Assembly: GCA_947184155.2 (NCBI GenBank)
Contig: CAMXCT020002335.1
Coordinates: 645,094-709,093 of the forward strand
From: Cladocopium goreaui
Taxonomy: Eukaryota > Sar > Dinophyceae > Suessiales > Symbiodiniaceae
Direction: 5' to 3'
DNA: 64,000 bases
Positions 22,555 to 62,145 of the stretch are shown one piece after another. Position numbers and translations under genes: made by a program. The notes under the pieces were generated by a model. It searched no databases and was not told where the DNA came from. It worked only from the letters and a program-made list of their open reading frames with translations. Numbering within the stretch: position 1 is the stretch's first letter; the number at the start of each line of letters is the position of its first letter.

Positions 22555-22584
22555 TTATTATATGCCAGCTAATTTAGCAGATGC

Positions 22585-26009: not shown

Positions 26010-26023
26010 TCTCACAAGGTTAA

Positions 26024-35502: not shown

Positions 35503-35510
35503 AGCAGAAA

Positions 35511-36234: not shown

Positions 36235-36279
36235 CCCACCCCACTCATTCACAGAATTCGTTCCCGCCCTATGGGATTT

Positions 36280-36582: not shown

Positions 36583-36617
36583 GTATCCAGCGAAAAAGGG
36601 TATTTCTACGGAGTCAC

Positions 36618-45344: not shown

Positions 45345-45996
45345 GCGGACCTATTTATGCACAGTGTATTTGTGCCACAAGACAGTCATCAGCGCAGAGG
45401 GCAAAATGACTTATCAACTGATTTTGTTGTTTTTTCAATTGTGTAGCTACTCTTCTCTCTCTCTTTGATTTCGATACTAGGTAGCGAGGCTCTAATGGTA
45501 CTCCACTTACTGACTTCCTTCCTGTCGCTTTTCTTTGTCTATTTTCTTGTCTGTGCTTGCTTTGTTTTGATCTTGTCTGCTCTCCCTTGTTCCATGGGCT
45601 GCGATCCAACTATGTACTTGATTGGCAGTACACATAGTCGAGGATTCTGTGCAGACTCCTTTTTTGGCTCCTCAGTGGCGGCATTATGAGGTAAATGACC
45701 CAACCTGTGAATATGTCAGTTACCTCATGAAATAGTGCAATTCCTGCCCATCATCGTCCACGTGTTGTAGCTTCTTCCCTAACTATGCAATGAGGTCAAT
45801 CAGAAGTATATGTCGCTTTCCATCTCTAAGATAGCTCAGGGTACTTCTGTCCAAAGACGTGACAGGGGTCCCTCACACAAACAGTTACGTATTTTTGGGA
45901 ATTCAACCATCTTACAGAGTTTCTCCCTCATATGAGCTGCGTCAGTTTGTTTGCTTCGAAAGAAATTACCCAAGTTCAGTGATCTTGTTGCCTGCC
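45345..45996 (+). other. Leader/spacer with pyrimidine tract and hairpin
   Basis: Pyrimidine-rich stretch 45430-45600, then the CAAAGAC hairpin at 45838-45873. No conserved coding frame is seen. Confidence 0.55.
45838..45873 (+). ncRNA. CAAAGACG hairpin upstream of the 45997 ORF
   Basis: Inner stem CTGTC/GACAG (45847-45851 with 45861-45865), loop CAAAGACGT, outer stem AGGG/CCCT. The ORF start is 131 bases downstream of the inner stem. Confidence 0.85.
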
Positions 45997-46380
45997 ATGG
46001 CGTGCGCAACATCGGATGCATCAAGCTGTGACGAACGACTCCACCACATTAAACGTGTCATTAAGAAGTACACGGCTTGCTGTACTTTGCTGGACAATTT
46101 ACAGTCCGCCCACTATCATTTGCTCAAGGCAAAGCAACAGGCCAGGGAAGTATTCTGGGTCGACGTACCAATGCCAGAAAAGCTTGATGAGAACATCCAA
46201 TCGCAAGTTGCTCTACTTCACATGATAGCAGACTACAAAGCTCACATCGTACGAGAAATGGAATATGCTCAAAATGAGCTGTTAGTCCCAGTGGTGTATC
46301 CCGATGGCATTGAGCTCAGTTCAAGTGTAGACGAAGAACTACATGATGTGAGAGAGAACTGCTTCCCGCGCTCACCTTAG
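45997..46380 (+). CDS. Small helical protein, unrecognised
   Basis: 127 residues from ATG 45997 (MACATSDASSCDERLHHIKR). I prefer this ATG because the frame upstream would include the hairpin. The protein is mostly amphipathic helix (LLDNLQSAHYHLLKAKQQAR, ALLHMIADYKAHIVREMEYA) with an acidic end. No family is recognised. Confidence 0.6.
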   Translation: MACATSDASSCDERLHHIKRVIKKYTACCTLLDNLQSAHYHLLKAKQQAREVFWVDVPMPEKLDENIQSQVALLHMIADYKAHIVREMEYAQNELLVPVVYPDGIELSSSVDEELHDVRENCFPRSP

Positions 46381-46784
46381 AAGGGAGCATACAAAAGACG
46401 AGAAGTGCTAGTGCTATAATAGAAGCAAGATAACAGGGTGCCTATAAGCCCCCTGTACCCAATTTGCCTGAGCCATGAGAGGCTGGCTAGTCCCAACGTG
46501 TTTAGCCGCGCGCAGTGCAGTTTTGTGCAGCCACTGAAAAAACAAGATCACGTGTGTCTTCAGCTTGACTGTTAGGCTATATCAAAGCTTCCCATGCCGT
46601 CAGCTACTAGGTTTCCAATACAGGGTAACGAAGTTCACACAGTCTTCATCGCACACGTAGTCTATCGGCTCAAACAGATTTCAGCAAATACAGCTTACCT
46701 AATGATGTGCTACTTCCATTGATGCTAACATTGTTGCCTGACATCACCATAAATAGTATAGGTGATCCGCAGCTACCAAACCAC
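46381..46784 (+). other. Spacer, no gene
   Basis: No reading frame of note. It ends at the next CAAAGACG hairpin. Confidence 0.55.
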
Positions 46785-46821
46785 GGTGCTTTTCCGACCA
46801 AAGACGTGTCGGGACTGCACC
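46785..46821 (+). ncRNA. CAAAGACG hairpin upstream of the 46847 ORF
   Basis: Outer stem GGTGC/GCACC, internal loop TTTT/GACT, inner stem CCGAC/GTCGG, loop CAAAGACGT. The stems are perfect. The ORF ATG is 34 bases downstream of the inner stem. Confidence 0.9.
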
Positions 46822-46846
46822 TGGCAAGCGCCCCACTTGCGAAGCC

Positions 46847-47656
46847 ATGTCGACTGCGCTCATGACATTTCTAAGGAACTACCATTGGAAAGGATATAAC
46901 GTTGAAACCATTCAGAGCACCCCAAATATGTTGACGAATCTACATCGCGGCAAGTATCCTATCCATAGGCTATGTCACAATGTCAATATAGAGTGCAGAG
47001 CATTCAACTTGATGGAAGTATGCACATGGCTCAACGGTGAAAAATGGAACATCCTATGGGCTGAGGATGAGTCATGGCTCCCGGAGGAGGCGACAGTAAC
47101 GATGGCGGCTTCATTGCCCCATGGATTCCATAAGGTCATTCCTCGGGAGTGTGATGAGGTTTACCTGCAGGCTTGGTTGAATATCGCAGGATACGGAGGT
47201 TTTTATCCCTTTGCAGCAGAGGTGCGACACAACGGATATGCATGCTGGGCCAACTCCAGACGATTTGCAATAGTTGCAAAGAGTGCCCAACAATGTGCTA
47301 TTATTGCAGAAATTATGCATGCTTACAATATACTAGGCAATCGCATTGAAACACTGCAGCCAACCTTGGAAGGAATCGCACTGAGTGAACAATCACGAAT
47401 CAACAGTGCTGTCCATGAAGATGATCGACCTTGCTTTGATTTTCGGCTCTCGCAAGAGTGCCAAAACGCAATAGCAGGCCTTTTTCCTACTCATGAAGAT
47501 GAAGCGGATAGGATCTTCCAACTCAGTGAAGGCATCCAAGTGCTGCAAATGCAACATAATGATCTTGTACAAGAAGCCAACCGAGCACTTTATCGACTAC
47601 AGCAAAATTGGTATGCTCTAAGTGAAGCGTATGCAACCATTTTCAATGACCTGTGA
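46847..47656 (+). CDS. Unrecognised protein, paralogue of the 50294 ORF
   Basis: 269 residues. It shares with the ORF at 50294 the pattern LNGEKWNILWAEDE / INGECWNIILNDDM, SRRFAIVAKSAQQ / PRRFAVITNHQHN, AYNILGNRIETLQP / EHNILANRTPCWPF and SRINSAVHED / SRCSSAVHET. The N-terminal 60 residues and the coiled-coil C-terminus (LQMQHNDLVQEANRALYRLQ) are specific to this copy. The conserved Trp/Tyr-rich core looks like a folded globular domain. I know no family for it. Confidence 0.65.
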   Translation: MSTALMTFLRNYHWKGYNVETIQSTPNMLTNLHRGKYPIHRLCHNVNIECRAFNLMEVCTWLNGEKWNILWAEDESWLPEEATVTMAASLPHGFHKVIPRECDEVYLQAWLNIAGYGGFYPFAAEVRHNGYACWANSRRFAIVAKSAQQCAIIAEIMHAYNILGNRIETLQPTLEGIALSEQSRINSAVHEDDRPCFDFRLSQECQNAIAGLFPTHEDEADRIFQLSEGIQVLQMQHNDLVQEANRALYRLQQNWYALSEAYATIFNDL

Positions 47657-48265
47657 GGCACAATGAGTTAGCAGAAGTCCAGCGAAGTTGATCGTCAGGC
47701 AATCAAAAGAGGGGCTCCTTGGGCAGCTTTTCATGTGGTGATTCTCGCACGTCTTGTAAATAACTTTATGTGAACTGAACCACATGCTCACCTATTAGGG
47801 GCCAGCAATCCTCCTCTTGACAGTGCCGGTGGTGACTGCAGTGTGAACATGCTTTCCTGTTGGCTCACAGGTATTTCATCCCACCTAAGCTGGCATGCCG
47901 AACAAGCAATATCCCTTGCATACCCACTAGCAAGCTAGATGACATTTCTACAAGGGCGAGTGTACGTGATGTTCAAGGAAGGGCTTAGGATGACCCCCAA
48001 CCTGTACTTAACTTGTCTGTTCTTGCTTTCTAGTATTAATTCGTACACAATGGGTAACTCACTCAGTGTCCTAGGCTCTTCTCTAGTTCATGGTGTGAAG
48101 ACTAGATGTGAGCGTAGTTCAGTGACAACGGGATAGGAACTTGAATTCATCCTCTCCATCACACAGGCTGAGGTACCCCAGCGAGACAGTCATCATAGTG
48201 TCATAACCGACATGTACCAATTTTTGACATGTCCTGACCTGAAGTACCCCCACCATGATGGTCAC
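47657..48265 (+). other. Spacer, no supported gene
   Basis: A 65-codon frame at 47939-48136 has no supporting features. GACATGT and GACATGTC near 48210-48235 can pair. The region ends at the next hairpin. Confidence 0.5.
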
Positions 48266-48302
48266 GTTGTCTTTCCGACCAAAGACGCGTCGGGATTGCA
48301 AC
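48266..48302 (+). ncRNA. CAAAGACG hairpin upstream of the 48411 ORF
   Basis: Outer stem GTTGT/GCAAC (one T-G wobble), internal loop CTTT/GATT, inner stem CCGAC/GTCGG, loop CAAAGACGC. The ORF start lies 117 bases downstream of the inner stem. Confidence 0.9.
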
Positions 48303-48410
48303 TGACCCACAACAACATCCACCAATTTGCCACCTTAATGTCCCTTTCACTGTATTCGCAAACTAGCAATCTTTACGTAGTGGGCCTCCACTCTCTCTGC
48401 CCGTACTGCC

Positions 48411-49157
48411 ATGGAGTATGTGCGACTTCGCGGAGAAGAACACCAGCTCTCTATGCCGGTAAAGATGATCCTATATAGTTTGGAAGCAGCACAAGACCTT
48501 ATGGTGGCTGTGCGAGACCTCAGGCGTACAGTACGGCTAGTACAGTGTGGATGTGTCACCTTTTTCCCAGAAGAAGCACATGGATTGCAATTGATATATA
48601 ACACCTTAGAAGCTGACCTTCAGCAGGTTGAATTGGACGGACAGCGCATCACACAGCATCTTTTGACAGCACTAGCAGCATCGTACGAGGACATAGTCCG
48701 AGTGGCAGGTTTTAGTTGTCCGTCTACACGAGGTTTGTGGGTCAACCACCTATACTTAGTTCCAGCTGCTGATGGAGGCATGACCGATCAGGCGGGACTT
48801 GCTCCAGTACCAATAGATGCCCGACCATTTCGGCTGAACATTCAGACAATACACATCACTGCGACCCTGGGCGGCTTTCTGGACCGCAGGACCATGCGGC
48901 AAGCAGCTGATACAGTCGTGGAAGTTGCTTTTCTACTATTACGGTCAGGGTTGCCACCCAACCTCCGCATCTGGACCACCATAGCAGCTGGGACCAATTC
49001 AACAGTGCAAAGACTCCAACCAAGCACGCTCCTAGCGGATGTAGCCAGAATGATGGCTCCCGCCATAAGGTTTAATCTCCTCGTGCAGGATCAGCCCACT
49101 GCGGCCATTCGCAGCCCCGACAGAGAGTTAAGTGCGCCGGAAGTCGTCCTCCTGTAA
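48411..49157 (+). CDS. Unrecognised 248-residue protein
   Basis: Starts MEYVRLRGEEHQLSMPVKMI. The N-terminal half is helical (LEAAQDLMVAVRDLRRTVRL), and the C-terminal half has beta-like hydrophobic segments (FRLNIQTIHITATLGGF, FLLLRSGLPPNLRIWTTIAA). No signal peptide, membrane segment or catalytic motif is visible. It follows a CAAAGACG hairpin like its neighbours. Confidence 0.6.
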   Translation: MEYVRLRGEEHQLSMPVKMILYSLEAAQDLMVAVRDLRRTVRLVQCGCVTFFPEEAHGLQLIYNTLEADLQQVELDGQRITQHLLTALAASYEDIVRVAGFSCPSTRGLWVNHLYLVPAADGGMTDQAGLAPVPIDARPFRLNIQTIHITATLGGFLDRRTMRQAADTVVEVAFLLLRSGLPPNLRIWTTIAAGTNSTVQRLQPSTLLADVARMMAPAIRFNLLVQDQPTAAIRSPDRELSAPEVVLL

Positions 49158-49402
49158 CAAAAAGTGAAATGACTGGTGATTTTTAGAGTTGCCGTATCTC
49201 AGATCAGTGGAATTTGCACGATTTACGGGCCACTCATTACCTTCGCTTGCCATTATGTGCTCAAGAATGGCTACCTCACAACACAATTCCCACAAATACT
49301 ACCCAGTATACATCCTTGGAGTTTACTTGATGTTTTCAAGCAATTAACGCTAGACATAGAGTCATAGCCAGACAGCGCACACTGACTTGCCATGGTGATG
49401 AA

Positions 49403-49798
49403 ATGAAGCACTTAGATGTAGTGGATGGAGTTATCGGCGCAATATCGCCCGAAGCAAGACCTCCATCTGGAGTTATAGGAGACAACATCGAACTGCTAAT
49501 TTTACACCTACGAATGCCTGATGCTGCGACTTGGATTGCACACACTGCTACACATGCAGTAATCAGACTTGAAGAACAACAAATTCAAGACTACCTCCTC
49601 ATATCCAATGGACTCATGCACAGGACCCCCTGCTTTTTCTCAATCAAAGAAGAGACGGTAGGGTGCCTTGATGGTTTGCTGCTTGAACAGCTTTCCCGTG
49701 AAGGAATAGGCCTCACAGATTCATCTACGGTGTACATAGCCTTAGCTCATGTACAGCACAGTTATACCGAACTTACTCACTGTTTAACAAGTTTCTGA
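49403..49798 (+). CDS. Unrecognised 131-residue protein
   Basis: Starts MKHLDVVDGVIGAISPEARP. Helical sequence with a conserved-looking core (ATHAVIRLEEQQIQDYLLIS). It is one of the few ORFs here without a CAAAGAC hairpin in the spacer before it (49158-49402), so it may depend on the upstream ORF for expression, or may not be a gene. Confidence 0.5.
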   Translation: MKHLDVVDGVIGAISPEARPPSGVIGDNIELLILHLRMPDAATWIAHTATHAVIRLEEQQIQDYLLISNGLMHRTPCFFSIKEETVGCLDGLLLEQLSREGIGLTDSSTVYIALAHVQHSYTELTHCLTSF

Positions 49799-50293
49799 TG
49801 AATCAACCGGCTCGAAGCAGGGGCTTGCCTATTGTACTCAAGGGTGATATTGCAGTGAGAGAAAATTCTGACAAAAATGAAGTGGTAGGTTACGTCACGA
49901 CAGAGAGCATGATAAGCAGCGGTACTCATGAGTACACTTGCCCACCTTGGTCAAGTTCTGCAGATTGAGATCTGTCAGCAATATTGTATACCCTGCCGCA
50001 CTTCTGTGGCTCAAACCACCTTCCCATTTGCAGGGTTCCCACTCCTCTGACTAAAGACGTGTCAGGGGAGTACCCTCTCTCTATTTTACTTTCCCTCTAT
50101 TTGCCTTCTTCATCTTTCCCCTCCCTTTGGCTGTCTCCTTTTCTGCTACCCCATCTGCTTACCGTGACTGTTTGTACTTCAAGTGTGCTCCCTGGTCCAT
50201 CCCTGCCCGTCATTTGTGACTGATTCCTCTGTTCTCCCTTCCTGCTCTCTGTCCCTACTTCTCCCATACCTTTGTGCACTCCGGTGGGCAGTC
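49799..50293 (+). other. Leader with pyrimidine tract and extended hairpin
   Basis: 50064-50290 is strongly pyrimidine-rich, which could serve as a trans-splicing acceptor tract. The hairpin at 50032-50076 begins this leader. Confidence 0.5.
50032..50076 (+). ncRNA. CAAAGACG hairpin upstream of the 50294 ORF
   Basis: Inner stem CTGAC/GTCAG with loop TAAAGACGT (50047-50065). Beyond a T-G pair the stem continues as ACTCC/GGAGT, and AGGGT/ACCCT pairs outside a small bulge. This copy has the longest stem. Confidence 0.85.
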
Positions 50294-51457
50294 ATGGCGC
50301 ACTGGATTGGTGATAAGGTCACCCTGAAGGCAGGCCCACTGACTGGGCCTGACCAAGAGGGCCCAGCTGGAGGCAATAATGATACTGAGGCTCACAGTGA
50401 ATACCAGCGACCTGAGTACAAAGAGTCCTACATTACGGAATACGATGGCATCCAGGTCTATCGGCAGCAGGGCTGTTATGAGCACGCCAAGCAGCTCCAT
50501 GCGTGGTCTTTCTATGAATATAGAATGTGCATCAATGGAGAATGCTGGAATATTATCCTCAATGACGACATGAAGAGCCCGCCGGACTGGGCCTATCCAG
50601 GGTCCAGCTCCGCCAAATTGTCGCATGATTTCTGTCACGTAGATACTGAGGCCAGTGATGACGTCTATACCAACTTTTGGTTTGTGGAAATGGGAGGCCG
50701 ACAGATATGGCCCTTCTATGCCACAGATTCCTTTCAGGAAGATCTATGGATTTGGGTTAGCCCCAGAAGATTTGCAGTCATCACGAACCACCAACACAAT
50801 GAGAAATTGAATCATTTCTATGTCGACAGGATGCATGAACATAATATCCTGGCAAATCGCACACCGTGCTGGCCCTTCACTGAACTGACCAATAGCTCAG
50901 GCAAGGTGACGGACAAAACCATCGCCCTGAACAGAGAATCCCGCTGTAGTTCAGCAGTTCACGAAACTTTCAAGACTGGCTTTGAACACAAGAGTGCCAT
51001 GAAGTCTATGCCGCGAAGAGAAGAGAACCTACATGGCAAGAGAAAGTACTCTGACCCCTCGGGACAAACAAGTACTCAACAGCTTGACCCGTCCGGGAAC
51101 TACAGTGCACGTGATCTGCAGAAACTCAATGCAACCTTTGCTGATCAGTCTGAGACTAAATCAGCTGCAATACCAACCCATACGACCAGCAAAGTCACAA
51201 TGTGGCGGCATGGTGAGGTACCGCCACTAGGACCTGCAGCAGAGGGCCGGGCCCGGGCTGCTAAACAGCTGGCTTATGCACGCACTCTATTAACTGTTGT
51301 CATGGAGGCAGCCACCCAAATGGAAGAAGTTGTGAGCAATTTAGTGCAGATCGAGCACGAACAAGCCACGGCTAAAGGTGAAGATTTGGTGCAAGCTGCT
51401 TCAGCTGCTCCGACTGAATCTTGCACAGATCCAGCTACAGAGGGAAGTCAAAACTGA
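50294..51457 (+). CDS. Unrecognised protein, paralogue of the 46847 ORF
   Basis: 387 residues from ATG 50294 (MAHWIGDKVTLKAGPLTGPD). The in-frame stretch upstream is leader. The conserved domain (residues about 70-230) is shared with the 46847 protein. It is followed by a charged linker (SAMKSMPRREENLHGKRKYS) and a C-terminal helix (AKQLAYARTLLTVVMEAATQ) likely to form a coiled coil. Function unknown. Paralogy inside one element points to duplication of a hairpin-plus-ORF cassette. Confidence 0.65.
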   Translation: MAHWIGDKVTLKAGPLTGPDQEGPAGGNNDTEAHSEYQRPEYKESYITEYDGIQVYRQQGCYEHAKQLHAWSFYEYRMCINGECWNIILNDDMKSPPDWAYPGSSSAKLSHDFCHVDTEASDDVYTNFWFVEMGGRQIWPFYATDSFQEDLWIWVSPRRFAVITNHQHNEKLNHFYVDRMHEHNILANRTPCWPFTELTNSSGKVTDKTIALNRESRCSSAVHETFKTGFEHKSAMKSMPRREENLHGKRKYSDPSGQTSTQQLDPSGNYSARDLQKLNATFADQSETKSAAIPTHTTSKVTMWRHGEVPPLGPAAEGRARAAKQLAYARTLLTVVMEAATQMEEVVSNLVQIEHEQATAKGEDLVQAASAAPTESCTDPATEGSQN

Positions 51458-52090
51458 GCGACCTTAGATTTTGACATCTGCATGCTGTATACAGTCCGAA
51501 GGAACCGCAGCGAAGACTGTGGCCCTTTCCTCACCCCGAGGATGCAGGACGTGAAAAAGATGGTAATTGCACTAGATGGCATGCCTGCTGATAGATCAGT
51601 GAAAGTCGATTAGAGTGTAACATCTAAGAATGCATGTAAAACATGGTTTGCGGTAATTTTCCATTGCACTCATGCAGGAGGTGTCTTTGGTGAGCATGAG
51701 GCCTTTTGCCACGCTGCTCGATAGAGGGCCTGCAACATTTTTAGCTCAAATAAAGGCACTGGATTTCTGATCATCACCAACGTTTCCTAATACAAGGCTA
51801 GTCTTATACTAACTAGATTGCCGTACTTTTTAAACCTATGTTATCACAGACAGGCTGTACAGCGCGCGCCTGTAGCATCTGACTGGCTGTTATGTATACA
51901 ATGTGTTGTCTTGCATGTCCACGAGACCGTGTAGCAATGTTCTCCTTTTTTTGATTTTGATCTGCAAAGCAATTCTGGCTCAAATATAGATTGTCATACT
52001 AGTCATTGACTTTTTATACTTCCTGGCATATCCCTCAGTATCCTTCCTAGCCCGTACCTATATGAGTTTGGTGGTATCAGTCATAAGTGC
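51458..52090 (+). other. Spacer, no gene recognised
   Basis: AT-balanced sequence without supported ORF, repeat or hairpin until 52091. Confidence 0.5.
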
Positions 52091-52126
52091 GAGGCCTCTC
52101 TGGCTAAAGACTGTCAGGGTTGCCTC
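52091..52126 (+). ncRNA. TAAAGACT hairpin upstream of the ankyrin ORF
   Basis: Outer stem GAGGC/GCCTC, internal loop CTCT/GGTT, inner stem CTGGC/GTCAG (one G-T wobble), 8-base loop TAAAGACT. Confidence 0.9.
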
Positions 52127-52148
52127 CGCTTCTTTTTACGGGGCAAGT

Positions 52149-53267
52149 ATGCGACTCCGTGTGCGCCATGGAATCCTTGGCGAAACAGCCCTGACGATGG
52201 ACGTCTTGGAACGGACAACTCTCGGATGGGATATTATGAAACAGACGGCGATGGTGCTTAGGTTGGACTCACCCTTCCAAGTGGTCCTCTACGCAGACAG
52301 CTCGTCAGTAATCCAATCGCCATTGAGGGCTGTCCAATTCGACACTGATACAAATGAGGCAACATTATGCTATATAGTGCAGTCATTGCAAGTCCCGTCA
52401 GCACAGCAATATCAAGACCTTATAACTGCCATTGATCACAAAGATGTGATTGATGTAAGCTATCTTCTTGGCAGGGGCGTAGGCCTTATGGACGTGACGA
52501 CGGAGGGAGGGCATATCAGCACATTAGTAGCCTCTGCTATCCTTCGAGACCACTCTGCTGATCCGTATGCTTACCAGCCTACTGCTGGCCACTGCTTCCC
52601 TCGACATGGGGCCAGTTTAACTTATCTACTGTTACAAGCCCAAGCTGACCCCAATATCATCCCGCCCAAAACGCAACCTACCACTATGTTGGAATTAGCA
52701 GTTGAGTTGGGCAGCTCGCAGCTTGTTCAAACTTTGCTTGAGGCTGGTGCCTCGGTGATGCCCGTGAAAGGAGCGCTACCACCCCTCTTCCTTGCTGTCC
52801 TCCATCGGCACAGGACAAATGTACAGCTGCTCCTAGATGCACAAGCGGACCCGTGGCAGGAGATTGCGATTGCCTCCGTGCTTTGCCATTCACTGCAATG
52901 GCACGGTCACCCTGCCCGTAAAGAAGTCTTCAACGCTGTACAAGCTGCTGCTGCGCAGAGTGCTGAAGACACGGTCATTGACCTGCTACAGCAATTCTGT
53001 AGCGCAACAGACGTGGTGAGACGTGAGCAATCTTCTCTGGCGCGAGTGAAACCCACAGCTTTGACAGATAGGGCCACCACTATCATGAATCAAACTGTGT
53101 GGAAATACCAACATATCGTTGAAAAACAGTCTCGACAGACAAACTTCGCTACGTTTCGATGGCGCAGAATACTAGAAGGACTGTATTTACCAGTACGAAT
53201 ACGAAATGAGCTGCAATCACCCCCGGAGCTCAACCGGGAAGAAACATTCCTGCACCAAGTTGACTAA
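52149..53267 (+). CDS. Ankyrin-repeat protein
   Basis: 372 residues from ATG 52149. An upstream in-frame ATG at 52062 would put the hairpin inside the gene, so I prefer the later start. Ankyrin-like repeats are visible in the middle (DVIDVSYLLGRGVGLMDVTT, then SLTYLLLQAQADPNIIPP, MLELAVELGSSQLVQTLLEA and FLAVLHRHRTNVQLLLDAQA). The C-terminal 100 residues are basic and helical (ATFRWRRILEGLYLPVRIRN-like). Ankyrin repeats bind proteins. The partner is unknown. Confidence 0.7.
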   Translation: MRLRVRHGILGETALTMDVLERTTLGWDIMKQTAMVLRLDSPFQVVLYADSSSVIQSPLRAVQFDTDTNEATLCYIVQSLQVPSAQQYQDLITAIDHKDVIDVSYLLGRGVGLMDVTTEGGHISTLVASAILRDHSADPYAYQPTAGHCFPRHGASLTYLLLQAQADPNIIPPKTQPTTMLELAVELGSSQLVQTLLEAGASVMPVKGALPPLFLAVLHRHRTNVQLLLDAQADPWQEIAIASVLCHSLQWHGHPARKEVFNAVQAAAAQSAEDTVIDLLQQFCSATDVVRREQSSLARVKPTALTDRATTIMNQTVWKYQHIVEKQSRQTNFATFRWRRILEGLYLPVRIRNELQSPPELNREETFLHQVD

Positions 53268-53726
53268 TTGTGTGCTCCAGATGAACACTTTCCCAGTGAG
53301 AGGCTGGCACCAGGTAAAGGCTGAATTCTGGCCTGCTTGTGACCCTAGGAAAAACGAAAGAGCAGTACACATTAGTCACATCTTTCATTTCAACCATGAT
53401 GTCCTTAACTACACAAGTATCGTGTGCTCTGTTACATGTAGCTACCGCTCCCTGCGATCCTATCGGCTCAAAGTACGGCAGTAGACAGACCTGCTGCCTC
53501 AGCTTATTTCCAGAAAAGGGAAATATATAGTGCCTCCTTACCTCGGTGAGGGATCGATATAACAAACCTTTCCGGTGATTGGGCAAAGGGTATTACTACA
53601 GGCTTGTTTTGTCATACAACAGATTACACCTTGCTCTTTCGTGCATTGGGACCTTATTCCACGATAGTGCCCCTCATTGCGTTATCTCCTTTCACCTGAC
53701 TCCTTTCTCTCCTTTCCATTTGGTTT
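53268..53726 (+). other. Spacer, no gene recognised
   Basis: No supported ORF. Pyrimidine content rises from 53660 toward the hairpin array. Confidence 0.5.
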
Positions 53727-54262
53727 CTGGTTTTTCTGGCCAAAGACGTGCCAGGGCTACCAGCGCCTCTCTCCACCACCCCTCTCTTTCTTTTGCTCTC
53801 TCCTCTCCTCTTTTGTTCTTTGGCTCGTCCTTGCGGTCTGCTCCCTCCCTTTCCCTCTCTTTCTCCTTTTCACTCTCGTGCCTGGATTCTCTGACTAAAG
53901 ACTGTCAGGGCTTCCAGCCTCTCTTGTCCGTTCCTTCCCCCCTGATTTCACTTTGCTCCCTCACTGCCTTGTGCGCCGCCTCGGTTGTGCTGTCGTACCT
54001 TAATTTCTTGAGTGTTGGGTGATTTTCGATTCCACTTGTCTCCTGTTAAGGTGCTTGAACTGCCTGGCCAAAGACGTGTCAGGTTTTTCAACACTTGCCC
54101 CCTCCCCCCCTTGTTTCTTTGGTTTGTGTTGCTTTTGGCCTTTTCTGGTTGTTGTCTGTTTTGTTGGTCTTGCTTTGGTTTTCCCTTTTTTGGTTGATTT
54201 TGACTTTCGAGACTGACTGGAGTGCTTGAGTCTTCTGACCAAAGACGTGTCAGGATTCTCAA
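53727..54262 (+). ncRNA. Array of four CAAAGACG hairpins before the helicase ORF
   Basis: Four hairpins spaced 155, 173 and 171 bases apart, each followed by a pyrimidine tract. 53727-53763: outer CTGGT/ACCAG, inner CTGGC/GCCAG. 53882-53917: outer CTGGA/TCCAG, inner CTGAC/GTCAG with loop TAAAGACT. 54055-54091: outer TTGAA/TTCAA, inner CTGGC/GTCAG. 54226-54262: outer TTGAG/CTCAA, inner CTGAC/GTCAG. Every internal loop is 4x4. The stems differ by paired substitutions while the loop is nearly constant. The ORF ATG is 75 bases after the last inner stem. Confidence 0.9.
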
Positions 54263-54328
54263 CACCTCCCGCCCTCCCCCTTAATAACTTTTACACCCAA
54301 ATCTGCTACACAGGAACTGCACAGTGTG

Positions 54329-57300
54329 ATGTCTCTGCTTTCCAGGGAACAAGTTGTGAAGTCCTGGTACGCGAAGAACCCTAACATCAGCTTCTTTGAC
54401 TTGCTCTACGCACTTGAACAGCACAAGAGCATTTCGACTGAGTACGGGCTGAATGTATCAATTGAACAGCACTGGCGATTTGGAGACCCCCATAAGAAGA
54501 CAGCTGCACCTGATCGCCATGACTACGAAATTGCAATGGTCAACGGGAGCGAAACCTTACCTGGACCTGACTGGCACAAGTTGTACCGATGGTTGGTTAG
54601 TCAAAGCTCTGCTTTCTTGCCTTACCATACGGTATATTTGGTGACGGACAATCGTGATTTGCAATCGGACGAGGTCAAGTCTGTGCCTGGACTCAGCCAT
54701 TGGCCAATGGTCGCTGCTTGGTGGAAAGAACGGTTACGCTATGTCGGTCCATATGGAGAACTCACCACAGTTGTCTTTGTCCACATTTCAGCTGACACTG
54801 GTCTTCATAAAGTACACCCGACATGGGCAGGGACGTACATCCTTGATGCTTGTGTGTTCCTCTTTCCGACCATCAATTTTGCACTGATCGACAGCGATTG
54901 TGTGCCAGTGACCCTCTTTGAGATACGAGAACTTTGGCTAGCGAGCACTGACCCAACCCGCCCAGCTACATCAAGCAAAGCTGCAAAGAGCAAACTGTCA
55001 AGCCCCATTGCGTCATCGCACAAACGTGCGCGCTCTGTGGACACGGGAAGGGACATGCAGCAGCCTGGTCCACCATCGAAGCTATCCAGATCGCATAGTG
55101 CGGACCATATTGCTGTCCGAACAGCTGATCCACTACGAGCCCCTCCGTTCACCTACGGTGCCAATTTGGCAGACGAAGTTGACTATGGTGATTCGCCAGA
55201 CCCGAGTCCCCGCATGTCTCGTCGGGCGACGTCCAGCAGCGATGACTCCTCCCCGGCTGGGTCAACCAAACCTACCCGGAAGGACAAAGCAGCCGTGGAT
55301 GAAACTGCCACTGCGCGTAGGCCCAAAGGAGTCATCCTTGTGAGTGAGGCATTCACTGAAATCAACGCGGGTCTGGTCATTGTATTAGCTTCGGGTCATG
55401 AGAGTCCTGTACCTGTCACTGCCTTGGAGGACTCGGATACGGATCCTGATGAAATAGCCCACGTTATTACCAGTGCTTACCATAGACATGTCGAAGCCTA
55501 CCTTGCTACTACATATCCACCTGCAGACGTTGAGCAAGCAGTCGCTAGTGGATTACTTGGCTCTCCTCTGCTTGGCACGTCCACCCGTGTTACTGCAGAT
55601 TGGTGCCATGCGTGGAGTTTGTTAGGCCAGTGGTCTGGATTAGTCACTTTTCCGGTCCCAGCCTCTGGAGTCTGGCCGCGCCATGGTCATTTACGGAGGA
55701 TCCTTGATGGCTACCAAGGCAGACAACCGAACTTCCATAAATGGGCTCGGCCTGCCTACGAGCAAGGTGCCCTTCCGACCCTTAGCCTGCTGCCAGGTGA
55801 GGTCAGTGTACGAGTGCTACCAGGAGACAAGATGTACCAAGCCATGGCAATCGAGCCACATTACATGCGGCCTGTTATTCTGCATGGGTTTGGCACCAAT
55901 GCCAAGAAAAGAATGCCTAGCAGTCTCGCTGACCTCGCCCAATTCGGCTGGTTGCCGCTGGCTGCGGCTTTATTTGGTACACAAGAATGGAAGCCCCAAT
56001 GGCTGCATCACAATTTCCTTCCAGTGGTTGGTCTTCGACTGCATGCCAAAGTGCCTCCTCCTCCTCTCTCCCAAGCTCAACTAATCTTGCTGTGTGGACT
56101 GTGGCAACGGAAGGAACAATCGGAACCCTCATGTACATCGCTGCAGCAAGCAGCTCTCCTAAAGTTTGGTCTTCCGTTACCTTTCAGAGAGATGGCTAAA
56201 TGGGAAGTCACTGTCAATGAGCAGGCCATAGATGTTGGAGAAGTGTCCAAACAAAACTACATTGGAAGACAACCTGAAGCTGCGCTGCCCGTAGCGCTCA
56301 AAGGCTCTGCCGAGTGGGCCTCCTGGGTCCTTTCCCTCTCAGAAGTCTGGCAAGATGACGCCCCAATGCAAGACCGACCCCTTGAAGTGCATTGCAGTGG
56401 ATTAGGGGGTGGCCTACTTAATGGCGAACACGACTATGATATTTTCCTGCAAAATCTTGCGCAAACAAAGGTGTATGGCCCATCGCTTGCGATGACAGAT
56501 GATTGGGAAGCACATGTCACCCAATTGGGCCTCACCAAAACAGTGCATGAATATGCGGTATACCAGCTACTCTCCACTGCAGAAGGATGGACAGCTTGGC
56601 GAGATTTCCTCCCTGAACAGTTCTCCGATCAACAACTGCTGCTCACGAGAGCGATTCGCCTCATTGAGGCCGCGAATATCCGGCCAGCCCATGCCAGGCC
56701 ACCACACCCGACCTGGTCAACAGCAATTATGCAGATCTTTCGTTGCTACCATCCGCAAGGTAAACATCTATTTCTGAAGTCATGTTTTCCACACTTAGTC
56801 ACTACAGCGGATACAGGAGGTGTCAGGGACATCAACGTTTATGGGTTCTCGGCAGGGTCCTATACGGGCCTTGCAGTCCACGAGATCCTGAGTGAATTCG
56901 CTGCGTTCCCTGGCCTCACCAAAGTTGCTGCGATTGCGACGCCGCCAGAGATGATGCGACTTGCCACTGGCGAACGCAGAGTCACACTGGTGCATTGTCT
57001 GGAGGACCGGCTATGTGTGTGGAAACCTGACTCCCTGACAGAATTCAATTATCAGGTTGTTCTTATAGAAGGGCACCCCACATGGAGTGGGCGTGCCAAA
57101 CACTCCTATGGCCACTTGCTCTTCATTGACCTTGATGAAGGAGTCCATGAAATCCAAAGATTGCAAATCACCACCCCTCAAGTCATTCCACATGGAGTAC
57201 GGTGCGAGGGATTGCTGCGTGTACTTTCATGGGTTAGCTTTGACCTTCCTGAACACCTCAAGACGACTCTAAGTGCTCTGTTAGTAGCAGCGGGAGAGGG

Positions 57301-60300
57301 GAACACTGAGCTACAAACAGTACCCATTGTCGGACGGGACATTCGGGATGGTCAGCCTGATACGGAAGCTGAACTACAAGCAGCTCTGATTGCGATGATT
57401 CCTACACCGGGAGGATCCCATGATGAGGGAGGGTTGCTGGTTCGCAACTTACTGGCGGAATTCCTGCGTGGTTTTTCATTACGTACCCTCATCTTCCTAC
57501 TGGACATGGTGCTTCCGCAACTAGACGCTTATCATGCGGGACGGCAGCTCCAACATCTCCAGCCCTGGGTTAGTGTAGAACTAGCTCAGCAGAAGAAGCG
57601 AGGACAAACGGGAACACGGTTACAGGTTACCTACCAATATGAGGCGTATGCTGGCTTTCATGTCATTCACCTACATACTGACGGTGCCCCGCTCCTGCTC
57701 TTTAGTGCACCTTCGGAAGTTCCAACGACCTCGCCGCGTGCTCTCTGTGAAGCTGGGAATCTAGGCAACTTGGAAGCCAACGTGATGGCGGGCAGAGCAC
57801 TACTGGGAGTACTCCAGTTGCCAGACACTCAGCAGCGGTGTGTCATATTACTGGTACATGAAAAGGTGATGCCTAGCGGAACCAGCAAGAACCCTGCTCA
57901 GCGAGCGCTCAAGCGCATTGCCCCGAAGTTGCTGGAGCTTGTTATCGTCTCGCTACCCATTGCTCGGACCTTTTGTGGGCGACTTTTGGACCAGTATCTC
58001 AAAACAATGAGTTACTTTGATCCTGCACAGGACTGGCCGAAACCCATCGAAGACCACGTGTCCATGGCCGTAGTGTGGGAGGAGCTAGCCTTTCTGGGAG
58101 ACACACGCAGCCGCCATGAACTCTTAGTGTTTGCACAAGCTAACCAGTCGCGCCTACCATTGGCAATGGGCATCGTGCAGCCGCATATACCTGTTCGCCG
58201 TATGGCCAGCGAGCGCAAAACGCAGCTGACTGATGCATTAGTCAGAATCTTGAGCCGGTTTTTGACACCAGCCACGATCTCGATGGATGGGGCCCATGAC
58301 AGTTATTACCGTGAGCATCTACTTCCTCTAGCAGCCCACGGTGATGGACATGTCTTGACAGTCTCAATTGCACTGTTGCTGGCCATTCTGACAGGAAGAT
58401 CTGACTTATGTATTGCAGGGGTCTTTGGTGCTGGCAAAACGCGGTCCCTTGCGGTCTTGCTCATTGCCCTGAGCTGCGAACTCAAGGACTTTGTTGCGAT
58501 CATCTATACAAAAGAAAATGTAGCTGCCAAAGCACTTGCGGATCAATTAAGTGACCTCGCGCCCCCCACAATCAGGAGCTTCGGTAGGCTAATTGGTCGC
58601 ATGGAGGAAGGTAAAGGAGACGCATATGCCTCCAAAATTGACGTCCGATGCAGTGACCGTAATAGAATCATCGCTCACAAGAATGTACTCATTGCAACAG
58701 GTGGCTCAGCCACGGCGGAAATGGCGATGCGCTATTCCACTTTTGGCCATTGGATCTCTCGCACCTGGCTTGCTTTCATGGACGAAAGTCAACAGTATGG
58801 CAATTACCATGAGATTGCAGCTCTCGCTGCCATTCAACAACCAACCCTTACTGTCTTCATTGGAGATCACAGGCAAACTCCAGGAGGGCTGTCCAAAGGC
58901 CGAGCAGCGGCTGTCAATCGACGCAAACTGTTGCAACGGCCGTTAGGGCTCCGAGCGCTTGAGAAGCCAGGAGACTATCTTCCGCCGGCACGAATGGCAG
59001 CCCTTGTAGCTCAGCTTTGGCCTGATGCGAGCCAAGATCCGGAGTCAGATCTCTTTAAACTGCTGAGACTTGCAAACAAGCCGCATAGTGGCCCATGGAC
59101 ATCCACTCCGCAAGACTACGAGCTGCCTGTCGCCCTAAGGCGGGTGTTCCACTGCCGAATCTCGTGCCAGTTGGATGCACACAGCAGCCTAATTGCAGCA
59201 GCTCTAGCAGTCCTGCTGATTGCCACAGCACCAGAGGAGTTTGGAGTACCTGAGTGTACCACAACCCTTGAAGCAGCCGGGCTATGTGGTCCTCATCGTT
59301 GGGGTATCATTCTCCCTAACAGCTCACGGGTCTCAATGTTGACGTACCAAGCGATCGTTGCAGTTCGTTATCCTGAATTAGTCCTGCACGAGCCCAATCA
59401 CATCTACATTGGACACTTCGTGCCACATGAGGCCACTGTGGCACAAGGAGGTTTCCGTACAGTACTGTGGAATGCACCTAAAGATCTAAGAGCAGCTGTT
59501 GAAGATGTGGTTGCCTTCTGCACCTACCTGAAGAATTATTATCGCAACTTGCAACAGGGAGCGACCTCGCAGCTGCTTGTCTTATGCAACCGTACGGCGG
59601 TGCACAACTTGCTGCTCCAGCATGGCTTTCAGTCCGCGTGGTATGGCGGGCTGAGAGTTTCCACCACTTCCTCTGCTGCAGGGGCGACAGCACGCATTGC
59701 GGTCATTGTTCAAACAGGTGTCGGGTTTCTAAGTGGAGGACGTAGGGATGCAACAGCAGACGAGCGTGAGGACTGCTATGGAAGAGCAACTGTAGCGCTC
59801 ACAAGAGCCATTGAACATACCTATATTGTCTCGCCTCTTGATATGGCAGGCATGATTGGCATGGCTCAGACACTGGGAGTGTATCATTATGGATACTTCA
59901 CACTGAAAAACCGATACATCCAGTACCATGGCCCTGCGGCCTACCCCACCGACAAAATTGCTATAATGGAATGGGGATTAGTGGCACCTTTTATTTCCCA
60001 AGATAAACCCCCTCTTGCTATTGCCATGATTGTGACCATCAATGGCACGCGAGCGTGGCGACGATATCGGTTGGTGGTGGCATGCAGAGACAAGTTGCGC
60101 CTTCCCCCTGAGGTCCTTGCAGCGCTGGAGTCTCGCACACGTGACCATGTGCTAACGACCAGCGGCTTCTTCCCTGCTCGATTGATCGTGAATACTTGTA
60201 TGGTTACGCTGCTGATGGTTACAGATCTCCTCTCTGGCTATGTGCAGCCTATAATGGGTCCCCAGCACTTGTTCATCGACATAGAGGCCACAAGGTCTTC

Positions 60301-60337
60301 TTTCACGTGGGTATACAGGATCGACAACTTGTCGTAA
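54329..60337 (+). CDS. Serine-hydrolase-like plus UPF1-like SF1 helicase protein
   Basis: 2002 residues from ATG 54329. Residues 1-210 contain NFALIDSDCVPVTLFEI (DSD about 188), reminiscent of a glycosyltransferase-type DxD site but unproven. 220-330 is Ser/Pro-rich linker. NVYGFSAGSYTGLAV (Ser about 841) is a GxSxG nucleophile elbow of an alpha/beta hydrolase, with VHCLEDRLCVW and AKHSYGHLL as possible Asp and His. The helicase has GVFGAGKTR (Walker A, about 1364), FMDESQQYG (Walker B, about 1485), FIGDHRQTPGG (motif III, about 1512), GVGFLSGG and GRATVALTRA (motif VI, about 1818), the pattern of UPF1-like helicases. After about residue 1950 homology to copy 3 moves to the -1 frame (LYGYAADGYRSPLW), so the stop at 60337 results from a frameshift near 60.17 kb. 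Confidence 0.8.
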   Translation: MSLLSREQVVKSWYAKNPNISFFDLLYALEQHKSISTEYGLNVSIEQHWRFGDPHKKTAAPDRHDYEIAMVNGSETLPGPDWHKLYRWLVSQSSAFLPYHTVYLVTDNRDLQSDEVKSVPGLSHWPMVAAWWKERLRYVGPYGELTTVVFVHISADTGLHKVHPTWAGTYILDACVFLFPTINFALIDSDCVPVTLFEIRELWLASTDPTRPATSSKAAKSKLSSPIASSHKRARSVDTGRDMQQPGPPSKLSRSHSADHIAVRTADPLRAPPFTYGANLADEVDYGDSPDPSPRMSRRATSSSDDSSPAGSTKPTRKDKAAVDETATARRPKGVILVSEAFTEINAGLVIVLASGHESPVPVTALEDSDTDPDEIAHVITSAYHRHVEAYLATTYPPADVEQAVASGLLGSPLLGTSTRVTADWCHAWSLLGQWSGLVTFPVPASGVWPRHGHLRRILDGYQGRQPNFHKWARPAYEQGALPTLSLLPGEVSVRVLPGDKMYQAMAIEPHYMRPVILHGFGTNAKKRMPSSLADLAQFGWLPLAAALFGTQEWKPQWLHHNFLPVVGLRLHAKVPPPPLSQAQLILLCGLWQRKEQSEPSCTSLQQAALLKFGLPLPFREMAKWEVTVNEQAIDVGEVSKQNYIGRQPEAALPVALKGSAEWASWVLSLSEVWQDDAPMQDRPLEVHCSGLGGGLLNGEHDYDIFLQNLAQTKVYGPSLAMTDDWEAHVTQLGLTKTVHEYAVYQLLSTAEGWTAWRDFLPEQFSDQQLLLTRAIRLIEAANIRPAHARPPHPTWSTAIMQIFRCYHPQGKHLFLKSCFPHLVTTADTGGVRDINVYGFSAGSYTGLAVHEILSEFAAFPGLTKVAAIATPPEMMRLATGERRVTLVHCLEDRLCVWKPDSLTEFNYQVVLIEGHPTWSGRAKHSYGHLLFIDLDEGVHEIQRLQITTPQVIPHGVRCEGLLRVLSWVSFDLPEHLKTTLSALLVAAGEGNTELQTVPIVGRDIRDGQPDTEAELQAALIAMIPTPGGSHDEGGLLVRNLLAEFLRGFSLRTLIFLLDMVLPQLDAYHAGRQLQHLQPWVSVELAQQKKRGQTGTRLQVTYQYEAYAGFHVIHLHTDGAPLLLFSAPSEVPTTSPRALCEAGNLGNLEANVMAGRALLGVLQLPDTQQRCVILLVHEKVMPSGTSKNPAQRALKRIAPKLLELVIVSLPIARTFCGRLLDQYLKTMSYFDPAQDWPKPIEDHVSMAVVWEELAFLGDTRSRHELLVFAQANQSRLPLAMGIVQPHIPVRRMASERKTQLTDALVRILSRFLTPATISMDGAHDSYYREHLLPLAAHGDGHVLTVSIALLLAILTGRSDLCIAGVFGAGKTRSLAVLLIALSCELKDFVAIIYTKENVAAKALADQLSDLAPPTIRSFGRLIGRMEEGKGDAYASKIDVRCSDRNRIIAHKNVLIATGGSATAEMAMRYSTFGHWISRTWLAFMDESQQYGNYHEIAALAAIQQPTLTVFIGDHRQTPGGLSKGRAAAVNRRKLLQRPLGLRALEKPGDYLPPARMAALVAQLWPDASQDPESDLFKLLRLANKPHSGPWTSTPQDYELPVALRRVFHCRISCQLDAHSSLIAAALAVLLIATAPEEFGVPECTTTLEAAGLCGPHRWGIILPNSSRVSMLTYQAIVAVRYPELVLHEPNHIYIGHFVPHEATVAQGGFRTVLWNAPKDLRAAVEDVVAFCTYLKNYYRNLQQGATSQLLVLCNRTAVHNLLLQHGFQSAWYGGLRVSTTSSAAGATARIAVIVQTGVGFLSGGRRDATADEREDCYGRATVALTRAIEHTYIVSPLDMAGMIGMAQTLGVYHYGYFTLKNRYIQYHGPAAYPTDKIAIMEWGLVAPFISQDKPPLAIAMIVTINGTRAWRRYRLVVACRDKLRLPPEVLAALESRTRDHVLTTSGFFPARLIVNTCMVTLLMVTDLLSGYVQPIMGPQHLFIDIEATRSSFTWVYRIDNLS

Positions 60338-61530
60338 TCCCGGGTATCCATTACTTCGATGCCCATCGGTTGCAGCCGGACCTTTTGGCCACATTGGATC
60401 GCCAATTTGATCCAGGGTCTATGAAACTCGCAAGCCCCGAGGGTGCAGGAGACACAGTGAATGACCCCTCCTCGGATGAGGAAGCAGCCTCTACCGATGA
60501 CGAGAGTGATCCAGAAGACCCTACAGTTGCGTGGTGCCCACCCATACCTGATGCAGCTGAAGATCCCTCTGAAGACGAGATCTTGAGTGCAGCTGACAAG
60601 CTAGCAATCCTGATTACTAATGTCCAACCTAACGGAAACCCTTTTTGCATACCCGAAAACCTTGGAATTCTCCCGCCGCTGTGGCTACAGGCGAGATTGA
60701 CGTTGTCTTTGACTGCCATCCAAGAAAAGTTTGCGCGCATCTTGCTGAGTGTGGCCTGTGAACTGTGGTTGCGCGGGCAAATTGCCAGTGTGGAGGATGT
60801 CCTCCTGCAGACGGCAAGGGCTCTCACAATTCGACTGGCAGAGAAGCTCGCCCAGGCGATGAGCTCGTTGATGAGATTGGCTGAATCCATGGTGACTCCA
60901 GAAACTGAATGCCTGTTGTATGCCACTTACTGGTTTCGGCCCATCCTGTCTGAACTCATTGGCTCGGCCCGAGAGAGCTCTGAGGTGAATCGGAGTCGAG
61001 CGCCGAGTGGCCCAGTTAAAGTCCTGGTCACAGATCGGCCGCATCGACGCACTACTGGGTTAGTGGACCTTACGAGTGGTGCCTCTGCCCTACTGGCATG
61101 GTTCCCGGCTAGCTGGGCCAGCAAAATTGCTCCCAAACTTCTCGAGAATGCTCCTGAGAATGCGCAGAAACCACAAGAAATCAACATCACGTGCCCGAAA
61201 CGTTCCTGTGACGAGACTCCAGTGGAGGGAACAAAGCAGCTGCTCCAGGCAGTTAAATTTGCTGCCAAAAACATGCCTGGTTTTCGCCTTGGATTGGATG
61301 AAGACTTTCAAATGGCTGGATGTTTCCAGGAGCTCATCCATGGATATACCACAGGGCTCGTTGAACCATACATGATGCGAGGTCTCCAACCGCTGGGACC
61401 GAATCGCACTACTCTGGAAGTGATCATACCCTCTCAAGTAGGGCTTACACCTGAAAAGTGGAAAGAAACAGCCACACTGTGCCCACTTGATTGGCCTTCC
61501 AACTACAGTCTTTGCGATTGTGGCATACCA
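60196..61530 (+). pseudogene. Continuation of the helicase protein in the -1 frame
   Basis: The frame picks up at LYGYAADGYRSPLW (60196), which matches LYAYAADRTPFPTY of copy 3, where it is fused to the helicase. It runs through an acidic linker (SSDEEAASTDDESDPEDPTV) into the C-terminal helical domain shared with copy 1. At about 61511 one base is missing relative to copy 1 (NYSL/CDCG against NYSLLRLW), and the true reading resumes in the next frame. Real ends of this segment are frameshifts, not start or stop codons. Confidence 0.7.
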
Positions 61531-61901
61531 ATGGAAGCCTTCATCAAACGGAAGCGCGACTCAGGAATCAACTGTCACACAGCCATATGTTTGCTGAGTG
61601 GACAGTGCATCTCCACAGATTTGCAGAGCGTGTTTTATTCCAGCAACCTGCAGTTTATGTAGCGGGACATGCCTTGCAAACCAACCTGCGGGAACGAAAC
61701 TTCCCGGACAGGAAAGTCCGCAGGAGAGTCCCTCCGGAAGATCTGGACGAACATCAAAGGGCGATCCGAGCGCTTCATCAGCGTGCTATTGCTCAGCAAG
61801 GAGTGAACCCAGTTTCGTTTGGACTCACCAACGAATGGAACGACACTATCACATCGGATAAAAAGCATTATTTGGAACATTTCACGAGAGGTATGACATG
61901 A
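61491..61901 (+). pseudogene. Final segment of the helicase protein after a second frameshift
   Basis: Reads LRLWHTNGSLHQTEARLRNQ to ERNFPDRKVRRR and NPVSFGLTNEWNDTITSDKK, collinear with the end of the copy 1 ORF at 13.0-13.4 kb (ERTFPDRRLRKR, NPVSFAIGNSWNDTLRADKQ). The shared stop follows shortly after. This is the last coding segment of the element. Confidence 0.75.
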
Positions 61902-62100
61902 TCCCCAGCTCACCCCTGCTCGCACCACTTATACCCTTTCTGTGTCCACCCCTTCTCCCCCTTCCTCTTTTGTCTCATTTCGGTTTCACTCCCCATTGTC
62001 CCTCACACAGTATTTGGCCTTCGTTTCATCAACAATGGTGGTGGGAGTTGACCTAAATCTCTGTTTGGTCCCTTCGTCATCTCTACTTAAGGTTACTGTC

Positions 62101-62145
62101 CATACCGGTGTGTCTGTCCAAAGACGTGACAGGTGCACTGGTATG
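62101..62145 (+). ncRNA. CAAAGACG hairpin in the 3' tail of copy 2
   Basis: Outer stem CATACC/GGTATG (six pairs), 7x7 internal loop, inner stem CTGTC/GACAG, loop CAAAGACGT. It occupies the same place after the last ORF as the two hairpins of copy 1 and shares GTGCACT on the 3' side. Confidence 0.85.

Follow-up and report, generated by a model that had tools for sequence, protein, structure and literature searches.

Recurrent hairpins in the window

The window, which is the whole 64,000-nucleotide (nt) stretch of Cladocopium goreaui DNA analysed here (C2335:645094-709093), contains a giant retroelement of the long interspersed nuclear element (LINE) type. A recurrent RNA hairpin stands before most of the open reading frames (ORFs) that follow ORF2 of this element. 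The initial annotation had described twelve such hairpins, and all of them were found, every one on the plus strand. The seven leader-type copies were aligned with gaps confined to the loop of two copies (alignment A3), and a covariance model (R1) was built from them. The hairpins are listed below with their short names and the evidence in brackets.

13600-13651, plus strand: tail-type hairpin of element copy A (13623), loop CATAGACGT (fold, R1)
13680-13731, plus strand: second tail-type hairpin of copy A (13703), one inner-stem mismatch (R1 expect (E) value 0.19, the weakest of the twelve)
45838-45875, plus strand: hairpin (45852) before ORF 45997-46380 (fold, R1)
46781-46825, plus strand: leader-type hairpin (46799) before ORF 46847-47656 (fold, A3)
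48262-48306, plus strand: leader-type hairpin (48280) before ORF 48411-49157, with a compensated outer pair in locus L027
50032-50077, plus strand: hairpin (50052) before ORF 50294-51457, with a larger 5' bulge (fold, R1)
52087-52130, plus strand: leader-type hairpin (52105), loop TAAAGACT, before ORF 52149-53267 (fold, A3)
53722-53767, plus strand: leader-type hairpin (53741), first of four in a 607-nt ATG-free stretch before ORF 54329
53878-53921, plus strand: leader-type hairpin, second of four before ORF 54329 (fold, A3)
54051-54095, plus strand: leader-type hairpin, third of four before ORF 54329 (fold, A3)
54222-54266, plus strand: leader-type hairpin, fourth of four before ORF 54329 (fold, A3)
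62100-62146, plus strand: tail-type hairpin past the last ORF, 18 base pairs (bp) uninterrupted, G-U included (fold, R1)

The conserved structure was about 45 nt long. From the outside in, the leader-type fold consisted of a helix of 3-5 bp (in most copies), a 5' bulge, a 5-bp helix, a 2x2 mismatch made mostly of pyrimidines, a 7-bp helix and the loop YAAAGAC(G)T. The bulge was a single pyrimidine on the 5' side, which was C in six of the seven leader copies and T in copy 53741. The two outermost pairs of the outermost helix were open in three of the seven. The loop and stems of the shared architecture proposed earlier were retained, and the proposed 4x4 internal loop was replaced by two extra base pairs and the 2x2 pyrimidine mismatch. 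The third helix outside the outer stem, present in most leader copies, is an addition to that description. A larger internal loop had also been assigned to the tail copies. This was incorrect, and the tail copies (13.6, 13.7 and 62.1 kb), like copy 45852, instead had a more continuous helix. Copy 50052 had no 2x2 loop and a larger 5' bulge.

R1 placed the remaining five window copies right after its own seven and ahead of any other window sequence when the filters were off. The E-values of these five were 2.2e-6 to 0.19, and that of the best non-member was 0.98. Hairpins with the loop [CT]A[AT]AGAC were counted against 300 dinucleotide-preserving shuffles in 2-kb blocks. There were 11 in the window with at least 5 bp (shuffle mean 0.43, maximum 3) and 11 with at least 7 bp (shuffle mean 0.09, maximum 2). 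The twelfth hairpin, 13703, has an inner-stem mismatch and was not among the 11. The window's own genome was also searched (1.166 Gb, 6202 contigs). The pattern CNNNCYAAAGACGTGNNNG, which comprises the loop and four flanking bases, gave 3037 matches compared to 62 for the reversed pattern. The pattern CTGNCYAAAGACGTGNCAG gave 2564 compared to none, and CCAAAGACGTG gave 3253 compared to 938. The three free stem positions per side in the CNNNCYAAAGACGTGNNNG pattern all paired in 99 of the 100 listed among the 3037 matches, against 5.3% for random letters, with the reservation that genome-wide copies share descent and are not independent. The shuffles and the 3037 matches against the reversed control ruled out a chance or low-complexity origin.

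Covariation and strand asymmetry

Paired changes around a fixed loop had been claimed for the hairpin, and a statistical covariation test on the seven leader copies bore this out. Two-sided changes occurred at 13 of 17 base pairs, 93.3% of the cells were paired, and none of the 500 shuffles reached either value. A second alignment (A4) comprised the 97 R1 matches from loci L009-L036 of the same genome, in 65 distinct rows. In this alignment, which was fitted to the R1 model, 92.6% of the cells were paired and the covariation score was 0.516, compared to 0.164 after shuffling. Homologous copies, checked in this one genome, carried compensatory stem changes. The window, for example, has GTTGT/GCAAC as the outer stem of hairpin 48280, where L027 has GGTGT/GCACC.

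The two inner helices of the 65 rows contained 105 G-U pairs and no A-C pair. Of these G-U pairs, 58 fell at one position; 64 rows had letters there, and U-G stood in 58 of them. The presence of G-U without A-C meant that the sense RNA was the conserved molecule, and it appears to be the target of selection. The alternative is an inverted repeat that functions as DNA, in the form of a promoter, an origin or a protein-binding palindrome, since intergenic inverted repeats can bind dimeric proteins. It is hardly credible for this hairpin. A palindromic DNA site was disfavoured by the G-U pairs without A-C, the copies in the window had a single orientation relative to the ORFs, and the mismatch loop and the bulge were kept.

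Copies in the genome and in viral contigs

More copies ahead of ORFs were found in this genome, as the proposal would predict. There were thousands of copies of the core, and most of the matches read were of the leader type or belonged to arrays before ORF1. Among the 97 R1 matches in the loci read, 68 corresponded to window leader hairpins, 20 to arrays before ORF1-type starts and 8 to the tail hairpin. Identity was compared for the 76 matches that mapped to one of ten window hairpins, leaving aside 20 in the L030-L032 arrays and one, unassigned, in L035. Identity to the window was 96.6% in the hairpin, a value inflated by the picking of matches with the model, and 77.7% and 82.6% in the 120 nt upstream and downstream. 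In a fairer comparison, BLAST alignments spanned the hairpin position by 60 nt on both sides at 63 sites, and all 63 had the hairpin, for loci that had themselves been selected by the loop sequence. Hairpin 45852 was identical to the window over its 38 nt in five of six other copies.

Occurrence in viruses was considered and rejected. The viral contigs gave 7 exact matches to the core pattern, which is about chance for the size of the collection by a rough estimate, and protein-based scans of these contigs found no relative of the element proteins. The seven matches scored 15.1 to 23.7 bits with R1 and covered the inner hairpin only (positions 17-35). All seven outscored window copy 13703 (13.7 bits), and L005 and L006 also outscored 13623 (20.1 bits). 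The 19-nt core alone is not diagnostic, because viral matches outscore some window copies.

The host element and its ORFs

The host is a LINE-type retroelement of more than 31 kb with at least nine ORFs. The claim of a giant retroelement was upheld by locus L025, in which a single alignment ran from ORF2 into the hairpin region, and by copy C150, in which the 5' half was intact. BLAST of the window against L019, L024 and L033 showed the same order from the end of ORF2 to the hairpin region, interrupted by a diverged gap of at most about 250 nt. The 5' half in C150 (L038, L039) comprised a spliced-leader relic, eight hairpins, an ORF1 of 2267 amino acids (aa), an ORF2 of 2024 aa that starts 15 nt after ORF1, and a hairpin of the 45852 type. 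Between 88.2 kb and 56.9 kb, the hairpins listed on C150 followed one another in the expected order, with the sequence read only above 73 kb, and the length of more than 31 kb follows from this extent. The ORFs of the element in the window are as follows.

36583-38510, plus strand: 3' part of the LINE ORF1 (match to the 2267-aa ORF1 of C150), truncated on the 5' side where a DIRS-like element is inserted
38529-44594, plus strand: LINE ORF2, 2021 aa (reverse transcriptase (RT) domain RVT_1, E 1.1e-9)
45997-46380, plus strand: downstream ORF, coding (codon-position bias)
46847-47656, plus strand: downstream ORF, paralogue of 50294-51457 with 28% identity (codon-position bias)
48411-49157, plus strand: downstream ORF (codon-position bias)
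49403-49798, plus strand: downstream ORF with no hairpin ahead (codon-position bias)
50294-51457, plus strand: downstream ORF, 387 aa, of a large multi-copy protein family (codon-position bias)
52149-53267, plus strand: downstream ORF with ankyrin repeats (codon-position bias)
54329-61901, plus strand: giant ORF with superfamily 1 (SF1) helicase motifs seen by eye (codon-position bias)

Beyond ORF2, the element extended over about 19 kb more and contained seven further coding ORFs, six of them led by a hairpin. The codon-position test pooled substitutions over related copies and covered the downstream ORFs, not ORF1 and ORF2. Between-copy substitutions lay mostly at third codon positions in ORFs 45997, 46847, 48411, 49403, 50294, 52149 and 54329, and were even over the positions in three intergenic controls. 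These results indicated that the seven downstream ORFs were coding. ORF 44964-45344 showed weak bias only (75, 59, 92) and was left out of this count.

ORF2 gave weak matches to R2 RT chains (best E 0.00016) and a sub-threshold match to the RNase H-like RVT_3 (E 0.022), and endonuclease motifs were recognised by eye. A fragment in L037 matched DNA_methylase below the cut-off (E 0.021). The 2267-aa ORF1 and pieces of it gave no DNA_methylase match, and stretches resembling methyltransferase motifs were seen in them by eye. The 716-aa ORF1 piece had 43 protein relatives. The giant-ORF protein of the window had no Pfam match, and one relative, P0011, carried PF13245. The frame of the giant ORF was broken in the window near 60.2 and 61.5 kb, and P0006 and L035 were unbroken across the first break. 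This helicase-like ORF had 16 protein relatives, in clusters of up to 1018 members, and a search of PDB sequences with the helicase-family profile gave no match. One scan of prokaryote genomes found a single relative of the helicase protein, a fragment with 47% identity on contig L008 (JAOXRU010000051.1) of a Flavobacteriaceae metagenome-assembled genome. This contig had no R1 hairpin match and is probably eukaryotic contamination. The 387-aa protein had 72 relatives. Some of them belonged to clusters with as many as 353 members and came from short contigs (1.5-1.9 kb), which may be single-cistron transcripts.

The insertion in ORF1 is a DIRS-like retroelement at 27731-36582 with the order A-ORFs-B-A-B, and its end meets ORF1 at about 36579-36588. 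Its repeats A1 (27731-28154) and A2 (35809-36234) were 99.1% identical over 426 nt, and B1 (35511-35813) and B2 (36280-36582) were 99.7% identical over 303 nt. It had a weak RVT_1 match in 32167-35502. A diverged relative of the giant element occupied 22573-27572, with a helicase C-terminus that was 32% identical and without any R1 hairpin. Its apparent 3' end has a 94-nt stretch ending GGAAAAAAAA, which is common to 16109-16202 behind copy A. After the 424-aa ORF of that relative, at 26020-26105, two short palindromes lie around GGGGTACCC, and a similar arrangement was seen by eye in L032 near 1310. They may represent another type of hairpin with an equivalent role. A 1250-aa ORF on the minus strand (18802-22554) contained a Copia-type RT (RVT_2, E 1.9e-19).

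Hairpins in the ORF leaders

The placement before ORFs that had been claimed was observed at six of the seven coding downstream ORFs. The distance from the 5' end of the hairpin to the start codon was 159, 66, 149, 262, 62 and 607 nt for ORFs 45997, 46847, 48411, 50294, 52149 and 54329, respectively. The first ATG after the hairpin was the ORF start in four of the six, and ORFs 48411 and 45997 each had one earlier ATG. We compared 38 aligned leaders from other copies, which represent the six leaders. Between hairpin and start there were 16 ATG in 7653 nt (0.21 per 100 nt), whereas the 150-nt stretches just before the same hairpins held 115 in 5592 nt (2.06 per 100 nt), a tenfold contrast. There was no ATG in 26 of the 38 leaders, and all 38 kept the ATG at the ORF start. 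The five window leaders joined together had 1 ATG, compared to 5.9 after shuffling (fraction 0.002).

A similar trend was observed before ORF1. The arrays before the ORF1-type starts of L030, L031 and L032 had no ATG in 775, 897 and 626 nt, where the shuffled means were 6.2, 5.3 and 4.1. The ORF1-type frame was 716 aa in L031 and broken in L030, and L032 was read no further. Relics of the dinoflagellate spliced leader (DinoSL; reference sequence from a part of PMC6616646) occurred before ORF1 only, with 2 mismatches in L031 and 3 in C150. The window had no such relic at up to 4 mismatches. The stretches between relic and ORF1 start, 1267 nt in C150 and 1218 nt in L031, were free of ATG, compared to 27 and 25 ATG upstream of the relic (2.25 and 2.24 per 100 nt). 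ATG scarcity is what scanning ribosomes would select, and it points to a position of the hairpins within mRNA leaders. At L031:1118 and C150:88601, the relics are followed by an apparent second partial copy of the 5' end of the element. These relics suggest that trans-spliced RNA may have been reverse transcribed.

The main rival explanation is a signal for RNA processing or trans-splicing, in which the hairpin would mark the separation of cistrons and each ORF would receive a capped spliced-leader mRNA. The last upstream ATG lay 59, 4, 104 and 25 nt before the hairpin for ORFs 46847, 48411, 50294 and 52149, as if a 5' end were nearby. In addition, an AG was kept just 5' of hairpins 45852, 46799, 50052 and 52105 in the displayed alignments, as judged by eye. 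However, this AG was not kept at hairpin 48280. A fixed trans-splice acceptor at every hairpin was rejected on that account. The relic in the ORF1 leader of C150 lies about 360 nt ahead of the first of the eight hairpins, so the hairpin seems to act inside the leader and not to create its 5' end. Four hairpins in one ATG-free stretch before ORF 54329 and the hairpins in the 3' tail also fit a processing signal poorly. We consider it unlikely, although no other rival comes closer.

Proposed function

The claim of a selected RNA structure before retroelement ORFs was supported by covariation, copies and placement. Because letter-changed copies keep their base pairing, the hairpin is likely an RNA signal that aids gene expression of the element. 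Its repeats before ORF1 (eight in C150) and before the helicase-like ORF (four), together with its presence at six of the seven downstream ORFs, suggested that it acts on each element mRNA. The fixed loop, mismatch and bulge on stems that vary in sequence resemble a protein-binding site. A role within the mRNA leader fits the data better than cleavage of the RNA at the hairpin. We propose that the hairpin may be a docking site in the leader that promotes or controls translation of its cistron, or ribonucleoprotein (RNP) assembly, and we judge the chances for and against this proposal to be evenly balanced. Each downstream cistron would be carried on its own mRNA, probably through spliced-leader trans-splicing of a long precursor. 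A protein, encoded by the element or the host, would recognise three features: the fixed YAAAGACG loop, the 2x2 mismatch of pyrimidines and the pyrimidine bulge. The bound hairpin would then affect translation or bring all mRNAs of the element together in a single RNP, and in the 3' tail the docking site would be put to a second use.

A wider and more tentative version has one hairpin as a universal tag, arrayed and placed before nearly every cistron in a virus-like multi-cistron programme of a giant LINE. A dedicated protein would gather all element mRNAs for translation and retrotransposition, which has no known LINE counterpart. We regard this version as doubtful.

The tail hairpins also bear on packaging or template recognition, where the RT or the ORF1 protein of the element would bind the hairpin and so select element RNA for reverse transcription. 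The 3' stem-loops of stringent LINEs are a precedent, copies A and B have tail hairpins after their last ORF, and the 8 tail matches came from other copies. However, the majority of hairpins are distributed across about 16 kb, before ORFs, and have stayed close to start codons. Neither this placement nor the ATG-poor stretches would follow from template choice alone, and we consider packaging or template recognition improbable.

A known ribozyme or riboswitch was rejected with Rfam 15 (4227 families including ribozymes), which gave no match at the gathering cut-off in the window or in L038, L031, L028 and L025. Permissive scans gave two matches far below the gathering scores, or none. Rfam includes hammerhead families, and the result agreed with the earlier statements that the hairpin does not fit the hammerhead core and matches no known family. 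A further alternative is a novel class of self-cleaving ribozyme that would separate the cistrons. The setting resembles that of the hammerheads in rotifer Terminons, where a repeated structure lies between the ORFs of giant retroelements (part of PMC6431247). Beyond the lack of a Rfam ribozyme match, the few conserved unpaired letters are mostly in a simple hairpin loop, and an array of eight would cut its own leader apart. We consider such a ribozyme very improbable.

Several observations count against a docking site in the leader. In the A4 alignment, the number of pairs with two-sided change was not above the shuffles (285 of 500 reached it), and A-C rose to 13, with G-U at 134, when the outermost helix was included. 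The selection of loci by the loop sequence also biases the sample towards intact hairpins. Twelve of the 38 leaders (ORFs 45997 and 48411) carried one or two upstream ATGs, and the 150 nt upstream of the 53741 hairpin was also ATG-poor (0-1 in five copies). Taken singly, the five window leaders were not significantly poorer in ATG than their own dinucleotide shuffles (fractions 1.0, 0.58, 0.12, 1.0 and 0.08), so part of the ATG contrast is base composition. The coding ORF 49403-49798, between two hairpin-led ORFs, had no hairpin of its own and may be translated by another route. ORF2, which directly follows ORF1 in C150, was also without its own hairpin, and the tail hairpins had no ORF behind them. 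None of the element proteins was recognised as RNA-binding. The AlphaFold models of P0026 (a relative of the 716-aa ORF1 piece) and of the 387-aa protein had mean predicted local distance difference test (pLDDT) values of 46.0 and 40.6, which was too poor for a fold search.

Significance and comparison with known systems

LINEs usually have one or two ORFs and are shorter than 10 kb. The present LINE-type element exceeds 31 kb and has at least nine ORFs, seven of them with codon-position bias, and most are tied together by one hairpin. As a new RNA family, the hairpin supplies thousands of natural variants on which covariation and binding can be studied, and it serves as a probe for such elements in other genomes. 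Regulation in dinoflagellates has been described as mainly post-transcriptional and translational (part of PMC12787238), and the hairpin offers a direct handle on the gene expression of a polycistronic LINE in that lineage.

The transcription-regulating sequences of nidoviruses are alike in that a conserved element in the 5' leader appears again before each downstream ORF. They differ in that they are short, unstructured, from an RNA virus and used by a viral RNA polymerase. The HDV-like ribozymes of R2 and L1Tc/ingi are also RNA structures at the 5' end of LINEs, whereas the structure here is a simple hairpin with many copies per element and no Rfam match. In a zebrafish LINE, the ORF2 protein uses both the stem and the loop to bind the 3' stem-loop of its own element (PMC4176376). 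The stringent LINEs ZfL2 and UnaL2 share a small conserved stem-loop with the present element, where one hairpin also lies in the 3' tail. They differ in that the hairpin here is repeated before ORFs and in 5' arrays.

SymbioLINE-Dnmt (PMC5890265) is similar in its RT-bearing ORF2, in its many copies in a dinoflagellate genome and possibly in its upstream ORF, for which cytosine-methyltransferase-like motifs were seen by eye in our element. This likeness and the spliced-leader relics both point to a dinoflagellate as the host. It is described with two ORFs, whereas the present element adds about 19 kb, seven coding ORFs and the hairpins. Neither 'helicase' nor 'hairpin' appears in the main text of that paper. 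SymbioLINE-Dnmt elements are reported to lack poly-A tails (PMC5890265), whereas a short run of A seems to terminate element copies A and C, which share a stretch ending GGAAAAAAAA, taken for their 3' ends. A term search of a dinoflagellate genome review (PMC11453091) gave neither 'hairpin' nor 'stem-loop'. Searches of open-access literature, judged by titles and the starts of abstracts, brought up no paper on such a hairpin in dinoflagellate LINEs.

Terminons, which are giant Penelope-like elements (PMC6431247), are likewise multi-ORF giant retroelements with a recurrent RNA structure. Their structure is a hammerhead, whereas the present element has a LINE-type RT, no hammerhead match and hairpins before its cistrons. 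Repeated RNA structures in giant retroelements, such as the Terminon hammerheads, and LINE 3' stem-loops are thus known already. The new feature here, not described within the literature covered, is one family of hairpins tagging leaders across a multi-ORF LINE.

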